Below, one piece after another: positions 57,635-63,519 of a stretch of 64,000 nucleotides of DNA (position 1 is its first letter; every line of letters starts with the position of its first letter). Made by a program: the position numbers and the translations under genes. The DNA lies in assembly GCF_030252425.1 (NCBI RefSeq), contig NZ_CP126994.1:1674001-1738000 (forward strand), in the 5' to 3' direction. The notes below the pieces were generated by a model. That model was not told the DNA's origin. It saw nothing but the letters and a program-made list of their open reading frames with translations, and ran no database searches. The stretch is from Acidisoma sp. PAMC 29798. Its GTDB lineage: Bacteria > Pseudomonadota > Alphaproteobacteria > Acetobacterales > Acetobacteraceae.

Positions 57635-58633
57635 ATGAGCGACAGCACAATCAGTGTCACCACCCACCACACAAAGTGGCGGTTCGATTATTTTCCCGTC
57701 GGCCTGTTCGGCTCCGTCATGGGCCTGACGGGACTTTCGGTGGCGTGGCGGTTGGCGCATCTGCGCTACGGCGCACCCGGCTGGGTGGCGGACGGGATCG
57801 GCACGGTCGCTGTCATCGCCTTCATCCTGATTGTGTTGGGCTATGGGCTGAAGGCCATCACGGCGCCCGACGCCGTGATGAAGGAGTTCCGTCATCCGAT
57901 CGCCGGCAACTTGTTCGGCACATTTCTGATCAGCCTCTTGCTGCTCCCCATCGTTTTGGCCCCGGTCGCCCTTGATCTGGCGCGGATCCTGTGGGTGGCA
58001 GGGGCGATCGGCATGTTTGCCTTCGCTTGGATGATGGTCAGCCGGTGGATGAGCGACCGTCAAGCGATCGCCCACGCGACGCCCGCATGGATCGTGCCCG
58101 TTGTGGGCGTCTTGGACGTGCCATTGGCGCTGCCTAGCTTGGGGCTACCCCCGATGCACGGCGTCATGGTGTTGGGCCTGGCTGTCGGCCTGTTCTTCGC
58201 CGTGCCGCTGTTTACGCTGATCTTCTCGCGGCTGCTGTTCGAGCCGCCGATGCCGGACGCGCTGCAGCCGACGCTGCTGATCCTGGTTGCGCCCTTCGCC
58301 GTGGGGTTCTCCGCCTATGCTGTCACCTCCGGGCAGATCGATCTCTTCGCGCAGTCGCTCTATATGCTGACGCTGTTCATCCTGGCGGTGCTGTTGGGGC
58401 GGTTGCGCAACCTGATCGCCTGTTGCCCGTTCCGGATGGCTTGGTGGGCCGTGAGTTTTCCGCTCGCCGCCTCGTCCATCGCGGCCCTGCGCGTCGCGGC
58501 GGCAGAGCCGGGACTGATCACGGACGTGATCGCGCTCGGCTTGCTGGCCCTCGCGACGATGGTGATCGCGGGGTTGCTCGTGCGCACCTTGGTGGGCGTC
58601 GCTCGCGGGGAGTTGAAGACGCTGACAACGTAG
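57635..58633 (+). CDS. SLAC1/TehA-type anion channel protein
   Basis: 332 residues, ten predicted helices. FPVGLFGSVMGLTGLSVAW near the N-terminus and FRHPIAGNLFGTFLISLLLLP are family signatures. SLAC1/TehA proteins pass anions such as chloride, nitrate or tellurite-related species. Starts at ATG 57635. Confidence 0.88.
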   Translation: MSDSTISVTTHHTKWRFDYFPVGLFGSVMGLTGLSVAWRLAHLRYGAPGWVADGIGTVAVIAFILIVLGYGLKAITAPDAVMKEFRHPIAGNLFGTFLISLLLLPIVLAPVALDLARILWVAGAIGMFAFAWMMVSRWMSDRQAIAHATPAWIVPVVGVLDVPLALPSLGLPPMHGVMVLGLAVGLFFAVPLFTLIFSRLLFEPPMPDALQPTLLILVAPFAVGFSAYAVTSGQIDLFAQSLYMLTLFILAVLLGRLRNLIACCPFRMAWWAVSFPLAASSIAALRVAAAEPGLITDVIALGLLALATMVIAGLLVRTLVGVARGELKTLTT

Positions 58634-58942: not shown

Positions 58943-59162
58943 TATGTCTTCCTGTGGCGGCGGTGGAGTCCAAGACAGGGACAGAGTGCGGGCGAACCGT
59001 CTGTTGTCTGGAAGGGGGGCTCTAGACGGACGCCTGACGCGCAATGCCGGGCGGACGGTGCTTACCGCTGCGCACGCCTTCGTGACTCGGCCCACCCAGC
59101 GTGAGGCCGATGTCGCACTGGTCCAGGCCACATCGCGTGGCCCGAATGCCCCGCTTGGTCGC

Positions 59163-59363
59163 TTAGGAGCGACGCGCGACCAAGGTGACGTCCACCGGGC
59201 GCTCGCCCCACAACTCATCCAAAGTCTCGGATTTCGCTGCATAGGCGTGGGTGAGGGCCTTGTTCTTGGTGCGCAGGTTGGCGTTGGCTCGCTCGAGCTT
59301 TTCGACGCGCGCCATCAAGTCCGCTTTGGTCGAAGGAAGAACCGTTTTTTGAGGCCGCGGCAC
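59163..59363 (-). CDS. small coiled-coil protein
   Basis: 66 residues, GTG start preceded by GGAGAG. Residues ~15-50 form a heptad-like coil (ADLMARVEKLERANANLRTK). No known family. A palindrome (59377-59394) lies in its upstream region. Confidence 0.5.
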   Translation of the reverse strand: MPRPQKTVLPSTKADLMARVEKLERANANLRTKNKALTHAYAAKSETLDELWGERPVDVTLVARRS

Positions 59364-59376
59364 GTGCTTCTCTCCA

Positions 59377-59394
59377 TATCTTCTTTCGAAGATA
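59377..59394. promoter_or_regulatory. palindrome upstream of the coiled-coil gene
   Basis: TATCTTC-TTTC-GAAGATA, perfect 7-base arms, 14 bases before the GTG start and within an AT-rich stretch to 59460. Candidate operator or promoter hairpin. Confidence 0.4.
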
Positions 59395-59469
59395 AAACAT
59401 TGTTTACGAATTATATCCAGGACTAATAATGATGTAATTGATTGAGCCGTCGTCCTGTAACAGAAAACG

Positions 59470-59946
59470 TTACGGCATATTATCCTGAGCGGTCCGCTGA
59501 ACGGCAGTTGCCAGGAGAGACCGTTGTTCGGCCGTAAAGGCCACCGCCAAAGTGCAGGGGATATGGTGTACCGCGAGGTAAACCATGACCCAAAAAGCAG
59601 ACTCGTTCAGGATCGGCTTCGCTTTCAAGAGCTCTCGTGGCGAGAGCGGGCTCAGGTCCAACAGGTCATTGGCCGGCCATTTGGACTGGCTTCCGGGAGG
59701 AAGAGTGACCCTTGCCGGTTCACCAGAGGGTCGCGGTGCGACGCGGCCCTTGTGCGTCTGTGCCGCCTTGGTGAGGTGATGCTTGATGATCGCGGCCTGG
59801 GCAGCCGAGCGATCGATTGTATGGGTGATCAACGCGGACTGACGCCTCAACGCGTCGATGCGCGCCTGCAAAGCTACCAACTCGGCTCTGAGGCTTAGGA
59901 CATTGCCGATAACAGCGCCGAGGCGCGTATGCGTTTCAGGATCCAT
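59470..59946 (-). CDS. hypothetical protein
   Basis: 158 residues, helical N-terminus (LSLRAELVALQARIDALRRQ), a basic Pro-rich middle, and a hydrophobic C-terminal helix. No known family. No strong ribosome-binding site, so start is uncertain. Confidence 0.45.
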   Translation of the reverse strand: MDPETHTRLGAVIGNVLSLRAELVALQARIDALRRQSALITHTIDRSAAQAAIIKHHLTKAAQTHKGRVAPRPSGEPARVTLPPGSQSKWPANDLLDLSPLSPRELLKAKPILNESAFWVMVYLAVHHIPCTLAVAFTAEQRSLLATAVQRTAQDNMP

Positions 59947-60236
59947 TTTGGCATCCTGGCAGGTCTCGCGCTCTGCTCCAAGGTGATCGTGTGTGCGGAT
60001 GCCAGCAGCGCGCCGTTGCGGGCGATGCGGATGGCGGTTTTCAGAGGAAAAGGGGGGATATTCTGCAAAGGTCGATGTGGCATGTGGCGTCAGCGTTTCC
60101 GCGTGATCTGATTCACATCACATCGGATGTGTTGCCAATGTGATGGTAGAGGCAAGTCACATCACGCCGAGATGACAGTCAGCGATGACCGTTACTGCAA
60201 GGAGACGGCGCGGGCGTTCGCACACCGGCACGCCGC

Positions 60237-60650
60237 TTACTGGTAACTTCCGTCTGGAAGCCGACCATGAAACGCCGTGTTCCGGCAGTTGCCCCAGGGT
60301 CCGTGCCAATAGCCGGGAGGGCATCCATTTCCGGCCGCCGCAAAGCCGCCACCGGGCAGGGGCCCGCTATAGGGCGTGCTCCGGCATTCGCCCCATGGCC
60401 CACGCCACGATCCGGCAGCACAGCCGGTGCCATTTTTCACGTATCCGCCGCCTGGCGTCGGCCCGCTATAGGGTGTATTCCGGCATTCCCCCCACGGCCC
60501 GCGCCATGATCCGGCAGCACAGCCATCGGCCACGCGGACGAAGAGGTCGGACTGGCGATGGGACGATTGCAGCATCGTCGGCGACGATGCGGCCATCGCC
60601 ATCGGGGCAAGCCCGACAACCAAGGCGAGAGTCACGAGGAAGCCGCGCAT
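60237..60650 (-). CDS. secreted protein with three GC-x-GxxxGPxGxCR repeats
   Basis: 137 residues with a signal peptide ending MAMA. Then come three repeats of about 33 residues, each starting GCxxGxWxGPWGxCR and each with two cysteines; the first two also share TPYSGP and PGGG, which are replaced by TAFHGR and PDGS in the third. The pattern is related to the GCG_CRPN-type Cys/Trp repeat proteins of alphaproteobacteria. ATG at 60650 follows AGGA. Two cysteines per repeat suggest disulfides or metal binding. Confidence 0.75.
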   Translation of the reverse strand: MRGFLVTLALVVGLAPMAMAASSPTMLQSSHRQSDLFVRVADGCAAGSWRGPWGECRNTPYSGPTPGGGYVKNGTGCAAGSWRGPWGECRSTPYSGPLPGGGFAAAGNGCPPGYWHGPWGNCRNTAFHGRLPDGSYQ

Positions 60651-61445
60651 GTGGTTTTTCCTGACACGGTGCTTTGGAGCAACGAATTGCTCACGAAACA
60701 GAGTGTGCGATCCGGTCGGGAGCGGCAAGCCCCCATCGCGTATGTTGTCGTCGATCGGGAGGGAGGGTCGTCGCATGGTTTTCCAGGCGGTCAGCCGGTT
60801 GGGTTAAGACCTGGTCACGAAGAATGACAAACGCAGGTGTTCTTGGGATCGACGTCAAGTTCGTGACGACCTTGAAACGTCATATAGGTGAGCAGCACCC
60901 CGGCAGTGGTTGCTGCGATGGCGGCTGTCAGGGGTGTCTTCCGGTGCGGGGCGGCTTCCTTATGGTTCCAATCACCCGTAAGCAAAGTGTGGGACCGCGG
61001 TAGTCGGCGAGTCCCGCAGCAATGATAACCCTCACTGTCCGCAGGAGCGCTGCATTCCGACTTCGTGGCGCGCATTTTCCTTGGGGTCCGTCGATAGCAC
61101 TTCCATGCATGCTGGCCGGCGTCCAGCGCTGCGGAGGTAGCGACTCCTAGCCAAGCACAGTAGCGAAAATGATGGCGGAGCTCGATTCGATGGCGAGAGC
61201 GAGAAATTTAGAAGTCTTCGTCCTGATCCTAGATTACATCGGATCGGTGTCGTGTTGACGAGATCGGTACTCTGCAGCAATTTTAAATATGCCGAAGTGC
61301 CGCTCTTCATCGACATTCTGGGAGAGAAAGCAGTAAACTCCTATTATTTGGCGATAGGCACAACCGGGGAAGTCTTGATCAGAGGCTCAGCAAGAGCGAG
61401 CCTCAACGCGTCAAACAGAAAACCGTCTTCGTTTTTTACATTTAA
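60651..61445. other. intergenic, no gene called
   Basis: Almost 800 bases. A minus-strand open frame around 60815-60990 encodes a possible hydrophobic helix and an end reading CVCHSS but has no convincing start and is not called. No repeats, RNA or regulatory site were recognised. From about 61180 the base composition becomes more AT-rich than the rest of the window, as in the neighbouring membrane-protein gene and the DNA around the IS element. Confidence 0.5.
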
Positions 61446-62060
61446 TCAATGTGGCCGCGATTCTTTGAGTTCCTCCAGTGTAACATCCTTCCCAAACTCT
61501 GGATGGGTAGGAAACGCCTGCCTCATCGCACCGGATGCGGGAGCATTCTCTTCTAATTGGCGCCGAGCCTCAACCACAGCAATCTCGTGTCGGGTAGCAA
61601 GAGAACGCCGGAGTATCGCTGGTATTTGGCCGGCTCGCATCAAGATCACGAAAACAGAGCTTACTACTAAGGCTTGCCCAAACCGAGGGCCTACCTCGGT
61701 GACGAGGTAAGGGACTCGGTTCAATATACCGGGCGCATTAACAGCCAGAGCTACCAGCGCTCCGACGGCAACGGCGACACAACCAAAGAGGAGAAAGAGC
61801 GCATCCATTGCCGCTTTTAGCTCGGCCTCGAGCTTATTGATCGCGCTAACGGATCGTCCACCAGCCGCCATCGTATTAACGAGCAGTGAGATTGTCGGAA
61901 GAATGCTGGCTGAAATGAGGCCAAGAAACGTTATAAGCAACGTGCGAGCATCACCGGAAATGGTGCCTGGCGCTAACGCGGCTCCAACCACTATCGCAGC
62001 GAACAGCCCAATTGTTTCTAACTTTCGAAACTGCAATCTATCTTCCCCGCCGACGCCCAA
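61446..62060 (-). CDS. four-helix membrane protein beside the interrupted gene
   Basis: 204 residues. Two pairs of hydrophobic segments (IGLFAAIVVGAALAPG, LLITFLGLISASILPTISLL, then ALFLLFGCVAVAVGALVALAV and FGQALVVSSVFVILMRAG), a central charged helix (INKLEAELKAAMDALF) and a charged C-terminal tail. No family recognised. ATG at 62060 overlaps the interrupted gene upstream by 43 bases, so the two form one unit. Confidence 0.65.
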   Translation of the reverse strand: MGVGGEDRLQFRKLETIGLFAAIVVGAALAPGTISGDARTLLITFLGLISASILPTISLLVNTMAAGGRSVSAINKLEAELKAAMDALFLLFGCVAVAVGALVALAVNAPGILNRVPYLVTEVGPRFGQALVVSSVFVILMRAGQIPAILRRSLATRHEIAVVEARRQLEENAPASGAMRQAFPTHPEFGKDVTLEELKESRPH

Positions 62061-62365: not shown

Positions 62366-63226
62366 TTAGCCTGACGCTTTGTTCCGCTCGAATTCCATAG
62401 GGCTGAGATAGCCGATGGTCGAGTGGCGTCGGCGTAAATTATAGAACCGTTCGATGTAGTCGAATACGTCGGCTCGAGCCTGGTCCCTCGTGCGATATAC
62501 CTTGCGGGCTGTTCGCTCAGTTTTCAGCGAGGAGAAGAAGCTCTCCATTGCCGCATTGTCCCAGACATTCCCTGACCGACTCATGCTGCAACTAACGTTA
62601 TGATCTGCCAAGAGCTTCTGGAACTGTTCACTGCTGTATTGGCTTCCCTGGTCCGAATGATGCATCAACGCATCTGGTTTGCCGCGGCGCCAGATCGCCA
62701 TCATTAACGCGTCGGCCACCAACTGAGCTGTCATCGTGACGCTCATCGACCAGCCCACGACACGACGCGAGAAAAGGTCAATGACGGCAGCCACGTAGAG
62801 CCAACCTTCTGCCGTCCAAAGATAGGTGAAGTCGGCGATCCACTTCTGGTTCGGTGCTGTAGCTACGAATTGGCGGTCCAGCACGTTGGCAGCCGCCTCG
62901 TTCCGCTCGCCCTTGTCGGATGGCAGGCCTCTGCGGCGCGGTCGGGCCCGTAAGGCTTGCTCGCGCATGAGCCGCTCAATGCGGTGCAAGCCACACACGT
63001 CACCCTCGGCCAGGACGTCATGCCAGACGCGCCGGGCGCCATAGGTCCGGTCGCTGCCGACGAAGCTGGCCTTGACGTGCGCGCCGAGAATTTCGTCGCT
63101 GCGTGCCCGAGCGCTGGGCGATCGGGTGAGCCAGGCGTGGAATCCACTGCGTGAGACACCGAGCGCCTCGCAAAGCCACCGCACCGGCCAAATCCCTCGA
63201 TGCTTCGCCACGAAGCCGAATTTCAT
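62366..63226 (-). CDS. IS3 transposase OrfB
   Basis: 286 residues, DDE integrase-type catalytic domain: WIADFTYL (first Asp), HHSDQGSQY (second Asp) and NAAMESFF (Glu), with DLFSRRVVGW between. The N-terminus has the HTH_21-type GVSRSGFHAWL. Made as a fusion with OrfA by -1 frameshifting at the A7 run, or from its own ATG at 63226. Confidence 0.95.
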   Translation of the reverse strand: MKFGFVAKHRGIWPVRWLCEALGVSRSGFHAWLTRSPSARARSDEILGAHVKASFVGSDRTYGARRVWHDVLAEGDVCGLHRIERLMREQALRARPRRRGLPSDKGERNEAAANVLDRQFVATAPNQKWIADFTYLWTAEGWLYVAAVIDLFSRRVVGWSMSVTMTAQLVADALMMAIWRRGKPDALMHHSDQGSQYSSEQFQKLLADHNVSCSMSRSGNVWDNAAMESFFSSLKTERTARKVYRTRDQARADVFDYIERFYNLRRRHSTIGYLSPMEFERNKASG

Positions 63227-63519
63227 ATCGACTCCCTCGCGAAGTAGGCCGCGGCTTTTTTTAGGATATCGCGCTCCGCCTTGAGCTTTGCGACCTCACG
63301 CCGCAGACGATCTATCTCCTGCTGATCCGGCTTGAGCTGGCCCTGGCCCGGAAATGCCTGCCCAGGATCCGAGGTAACCTCCTTGATCCATCGTCGCAGA
63401 ATGCTTTCGCCCACATCCAGGTCCCGGCTGGCCTGCACCAATGAAATCCCACGTTCATTAACTAGCCGGACCGCCTCCAGCTTGAACTCCCGGCTGAACT
63501 GTCGTCGCGTCATTTGCAT
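63223..63519 (-). CDS. IS3 transposase OrfA
   Basis: 98 residues with the helix-turn-helix RQFSREFKLEAVRLVNE to DLDVGESILRRWI and a C-terminal leucine-zipper-like helix (IDRLRREVAKLKAERDILKK). It binds the terminal repeats. Overlaps orfB by four bases. Confidence 0.95.
   Translation of the reverse strand: MQMTRRQFSREFKLEAVRLVNERGISLVQASRDLDVGESILRRWIKEVTSDPGQAFPGQGQLKPDQQEIDRLRREVAKLKAERDILKKAAAYFARESI
63256..63262 (-). other. A7 slippery site for -1 frameshifting
   Basis: Minus strand reads CTA followed by seven A and G. Shifting one base back here enters the orfB frame, which stays open upstream of its ATG (SRGLLREGVD), giving a single OrfAB transposase. Confidence 0.8.

Follow-up and report, generated by a model that had tools for sequence, protein, structure and literature searches.

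A predicted exported protein with three WRGPWG units, a member of the GCG_CRPN family, in Acidisoma sp. PAMC 29798

Described relatives and family membership

The catalogued family closest to the small repeat protein studied here is NCBIfam NF047412 (sig_GCG_CRPN_rpt, 'GCG_CRPN prefix-to-repeats' domain-containing protein), on which an open-access library contained no paper and for which we found no stated role. The other described system that resembles it is the growth-blocking (ENF) peptides of insects, whose core is presented in PMC6439351 as an EGF-like fold with one disulfide and a short hairpin, and whose motif is given there as C-x(2)-G-x(4,6)-G-x(1,2)-C-[KR]. The gene compared with them lies in a window of 64,000 nucleotides (the whole stretch of DNA that was analysed), part of a contig of 4.54 Mb in a genome that totals 4.99 Mb.

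The whole window protein scored 28.1 bits (E 1.5e-6) against NF047412, above the curated cut-off of 24, and the model matched it in three stretches. By eye the start of the protein looks signal-like, which may be a trait shared with the family. The literal GCG ... CRPN motif, as we read the family name, is absent, since GCA/GCP and CRN/CRS stand in place of GCG and CRPN, but the model still passes. The window protein has three WRGPWG units, whereas the wider NF047412 members that we found have one motif and then other low-complexity sequence. Pfam-A gave no family at E up to 10, so there is no sign of a known enzyme family. The earlier note had said that the family has no known role, and our searches of the open-access literature gave none, but the family itself is already catalogued. 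A six-frame search with NF047412 gave matches over the cut-off in at least 8 of 299 genomes of the bacterial family, at least 16 of 395 of the order and at least 3 of 385 of the class, and these counts are lower bounds because the family-wide search missed the window's own gene. Judged from these comparisons, the window protein is a three-repeat version of the catalogued family, and belongs to a WRGPWG subfamily that we define here. The family thereby gains a sharply delimited subfamily and candidate partner genes, along with a proposed fold of one disulfide per unit that can be tested.

The likeness to the growth-blocking peptides lies in the motif. All three window units match it as C-x2-G-x6-G-x-C-[KR], with the same Cys spacing, and in the wider set of proteins described below it was found in the last unit of 90 of 90 proteins and in the first unit of 48 of 83 (35 of 83 fail), against a background of 8 matches in 1,221,027 residues of the same loci's reading frames outside the family. 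A profile search of the PDB up to E 10 returned three growth-blocking peptides only (E 0.048, 0.052 and 0.31), and the window protein as a single query gave E 0.65. Neither value is significant, so common descent is unsupported. We read the likeness as convergence on a one-disulfide hairpin and not as descent. The growth-blocking peptides are also single-unit animal cytokines, whereas the window gene encodes a three-unit bacterial protein.

Gene anatomy and predicted fold

The gene was recognised by its open frame, its translation and the NF047412 match, and it is a single frame of 137 residues plus stop at 60237-60650 on the minus strand (60240-60650 without the stop). An alternative longer frame starts at 60776, but the start at 60650 is favoured because AGGA, a possible ribosome-binding site (60659-60662, minus strand), lies 9-12 bases ahead of its ATG. 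Residues 1-20 (60591-60650, minus strand) look by eye like a signal peptide with cleavage between AMA and A after residue 20, and AlphaFold2 places a helix at residues 2-13. From this signal-like start the protein is predicted to be exported.

Repeat comparison defined three units on the minus strand, which start at residues 43, 76 and 109 and are 33, 33 and 29 residues long. Unit 1 covers residues 43-75 with Cys 44 and 56 (60426-60524), and unit 2, a copy of unit 1, covers residues 76-108 with Cys 77 and 89 (60327-60425). Unit 3 covers residues 109-137 with Cys 110 and 122 (60240-60326), stops after 29 residues together with the protein end, and corresponds to the last unit that is conserved among the relatives. 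Every unit contains C-x11-C (Cys 12 apart) and a W-x-GPWG core. The anatomy supports the earlier description of a secreted protein with three Cys/Trp repeats of two Cys each.

Among 83 two-unit relatives, the distance between the two Cys of a unit was always 12, while the distance from the second to the third Cys varied from 16 to 31; one disulfide per unit fits this constant spacing with a variable linker. AlphaFold2 models of the window protein (from 47 rows) and of a Variovorax relative (from 46 rows) reached a mean pLDDT of 61.1 and 66.3 and a pTM of 0.28 and 0.33, respectively, and we regard both models as too low-scoring for a global fold. In these low-confidence models DSSP assigned two short strands to every C-C loop, the second beginning at the closing Cys, in all three window units and both Variovorax units. 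The only Foldseek match (E 8.5) is meaningless for a model of such low confidence.

We give about an even chance to the reading that this member of the WRGPWG subfamily of GCG_CRPN is an exported protein built of disulfide hairpins, which acts in the envelope. The NF047412 score, the constant Cys distance within units, the strands in the models, the growth-blocking-peptide motif and the LTXXQ-type neighbour described below speak for it, while the low quality of the models, the non-significant match to the growth-blocking peptides and the 35 of 83 first units outside their motif speak against it. The small protein would be exported via Sec, and in the oxidising periplasm or at the cell exterior each C-x11-C unit would close on itself by a disulfide to form a short beta-hairpin, so that the hairpins would be strung along Gly/Pro-rich linkers. 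The strongly conserved last unit with its fixed tail may be the main working module, and unit 1 a partner that varies more and underwent one duplication in the window lineage. The most likely role would be that of a binding or structural element of the envelope or surface.

The conserved last unit also bears on a different reading, in which the protein is an exported metal-binding protein, the Cys and the His of the last unit's GHC and YHG bind copper or zinc, and the LTXXQ-type neighbour forms part of a metal-stress module. At least 90% of 47 aligned rows have each of the two His, and E. coli Spy deletion mutants are described as zinc-sensitive in PMC8144458. But the first His is Asn in the window protein and in Acidisoma silvae, and the second is mostly missing from first units, so we consider metal binding unlikely.

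Relatives and the origin of the extra unit

With the window protein as the only query, genome_contigs gave no confirmed relative, but an alignment query confirmed 119, from which the best 80 of 119 were taken. Three of four plasmid matches were included (H4 was left out), which gave a sample of 83 loci (L051-L133); some genomes contribute two loci and some proteins are identical (e.g., L078, L081 and L132). For two alignments (A3 and A4), 45 of the 80 loci were chosen for spread, with the A. silvae locus L118 counted in. Because the search patterns came from WRGPWG, this set represents the WRGPWG subfamily but does not cover NF047412 as a whole. Going by the names of the records, the 83 loci belong mainly to Hyphomicrobiales (Methylobacterium, Ancylobacter, Xanthobacter, Rhizobium, Bradyrhizobium, Afipia and others), and the other carriers are four Roseomonas-type loci, one Acidisoma, one Reyranella and three Variovorax. 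A second place in the window's own genome (E 0.022, 29% identity, one stop) was not counted as a relative. A phage origin was rejected, since nothing in the phage collection matched.

All 83 loci encode a protein with exactly two C-x11-C units and only the window has one with three, within a search whose unit pattern required a unit near the C-terminus, so that other forms may escape it, as the wider members with one motif illustrate. The two-unit proteins, such as that of A. silvae, share with the window protein the signal-like start, the C-x11-C spacing and the conserved last unit with its tail, and they differ from it in the number of units. In the last unit of Bosea sp. 117 (L121:7806-8237) we saw an ending like that of a first unit, YVGPLPGGGYQP in place of YHGRLP..., as though a copy of unit 1 had replaced unit 2.

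Within the window gene, 26 of 33 residues and 74 of 99 bases agree between units 1 and 2. In 2000 codon shuffles the highest match at a 99-base lag was 48, so the internal repetition is not due to chance. However, the earlier statement that the DNA of the first two repeats is very similar was overstated, since 25 of the 99 bases differ, 10 of the 26 same-residue codons carry silent changes, and Tandem Repeats Finder, run with the score threshold at its minimum, listed nothing at 59000-62000. Unit 3 is identical to units 1 and 2 at 16 and 15 of 30 positions, respectively, the 30th being the stop codon. It is closest to unit 2 of A. silvae (67 of 84 bases). Window units 1 and 2 each share 63 of 84 bases with unit 1 of A. 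silvae and 69 with each other, and this better match to each other argues for a single duplication of unit 1 in the window lineage. Window units 1 and 2 differ silently from each other in 9 of 25 codons, and from A. silvae in 8 of 22 and 8 of 21. These values are comparable, which means that the duplication would be about as old as the species split. The count of three thus comes, by base comparison, from one old duplication of unit 1 and not from a fluctuating array. The earlier suggestion that the array may expand and contract is largely unsupported, and a recent or hypervariable array finds no support in the Tandem Repeats Finder result, the base divergence, the constant two units in 83 loci and the age of the duplication. 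Two units are the rule in this sample and the window is the exception.

Gene neighbourhood and candidate roles

LTXXQ is a motif of Spy and CpxP. A gene of this type adjoins the repeat gene in 36 of 84 loci (the 83 plus the window) and is absent from that place in 48, as judged with a profile of the downstream gene, and the same profile matched only once elsewhere in the 1,262,604 bases of those loci. The gene is directly downstream in 34 loci and upstream in two (L097 and L109). A narrow distance rule gave 26 of the downstream cases, and L051, L055, L065, L069, L077, L098, L103 and L129, where the gene starts in a longer stop-to-stop frame, were added; in L069 the profile match is divided over two frames. 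Against Pfam LTXXQ, two of three scanned neighbours passed the cut-off and one fell below it. Spy is described in PMC8144458 as an envelope-stress chaperone. For the preferred reading of an exported hairpin protein, the adjacent LTXXQ (Spy/CpxP-like) exported protein of many relatives may help folding or share a stress role.

A gene like the LIP-type secretory lipase of L058 was found within 3.5 kb in 22 of 84 loci (L052-L130) and farther away in two, nearly always in loci that lack the LTXXQ gene (L105 alone has both), while an FAD monooxygenase recurs in 22 loci (19 near) and a cupin in 16 (all 16 near); one member of each of these three was scanned by Pfam, and all neighbour counts are raw, with loci within a genus not independent. 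The pattern of an EcfG-type general-stress promoter occurred in none of 83 full-length upstream stretches, against a background of 38 in 6516 windows of 400 bases.

In seven Rhizobium-type loci (L054, L058, L060, L062, L066, L068 and L131) a second exported-looking protein lies downstream and ends in one WxGPWGHC unit, and in L058 it has 237 residues and no Pfam match. The unit can thus be seen as a movable C-terminal module. This mobility, together with the agreement in motif and Cys spacing with the growth-blocking peptides, would suit a secreted precursor of signalling peptides, whose units, excised or displayed, would act on other cells as hairpins like those of the growth-blocking peptides. 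But the match to these peptides reached only E 0.048, a modification or processing enzyme was not recognised among 10 Pfam-scanned neighbour proteins, and by record name the carriers are mostly not insect-associated, so we think such a precursor very improbable. A bolder form of the convergence idea would make the WRGPWG unit a free-standing bacterial counterpart of the growth-blocking-peptide/EGF-type hairpin, a recognition module that other exported proteins can carry at their C-terminus and that a dedicated Spy-like chaperone, encoded next to it, services, and we offer it as speculation with a small chance of being correct.

Against the preferred reading, the window's 64 kb contain no match to the LTXXQ or lipase neighbour profiles, and 48 of 84 loci lack an adjacent LTXXQ gene; the window's genome has one Pfam LTXXQ match elsewhere, which is weak with the neighbour profile (23 bits). 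Apart from weak sharing, the neighbours of the window gene have no counterparts in the relatives' loci. An IS3-type transposase gene pair (rve, HTH_Tnp_1; 62366-63519, minus strand) lies 1.7 kb from the repeat gene. Within the genus Acidisoma the gene is present in two of five genomes and absent from three, so it is dispensable, which also counts against the preferred reading, and in a tree of 81 proteins the window protein sat on a long branch (1.1) with no firm placement. The observations on unshared neighbours, transposase, genus and tree would be expected of a degenerating or recently acquired passenger gene that has no role in the window strain. However, the frame is intact, the growth-blocking-peptide-like motif is kept in all three units, and units 1 and 2 are separated by more silent codon changes than replacements (10 to 7), though not between unit 3 and the other two units (10 to 14 and 9 to 15). 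A passenger gene is therefore a doubtful explanation in our view. On the other side of the repeat gene, a SLAC1-type anion channel gene (PF03595) is located at 57635-58633 on the plus strand.
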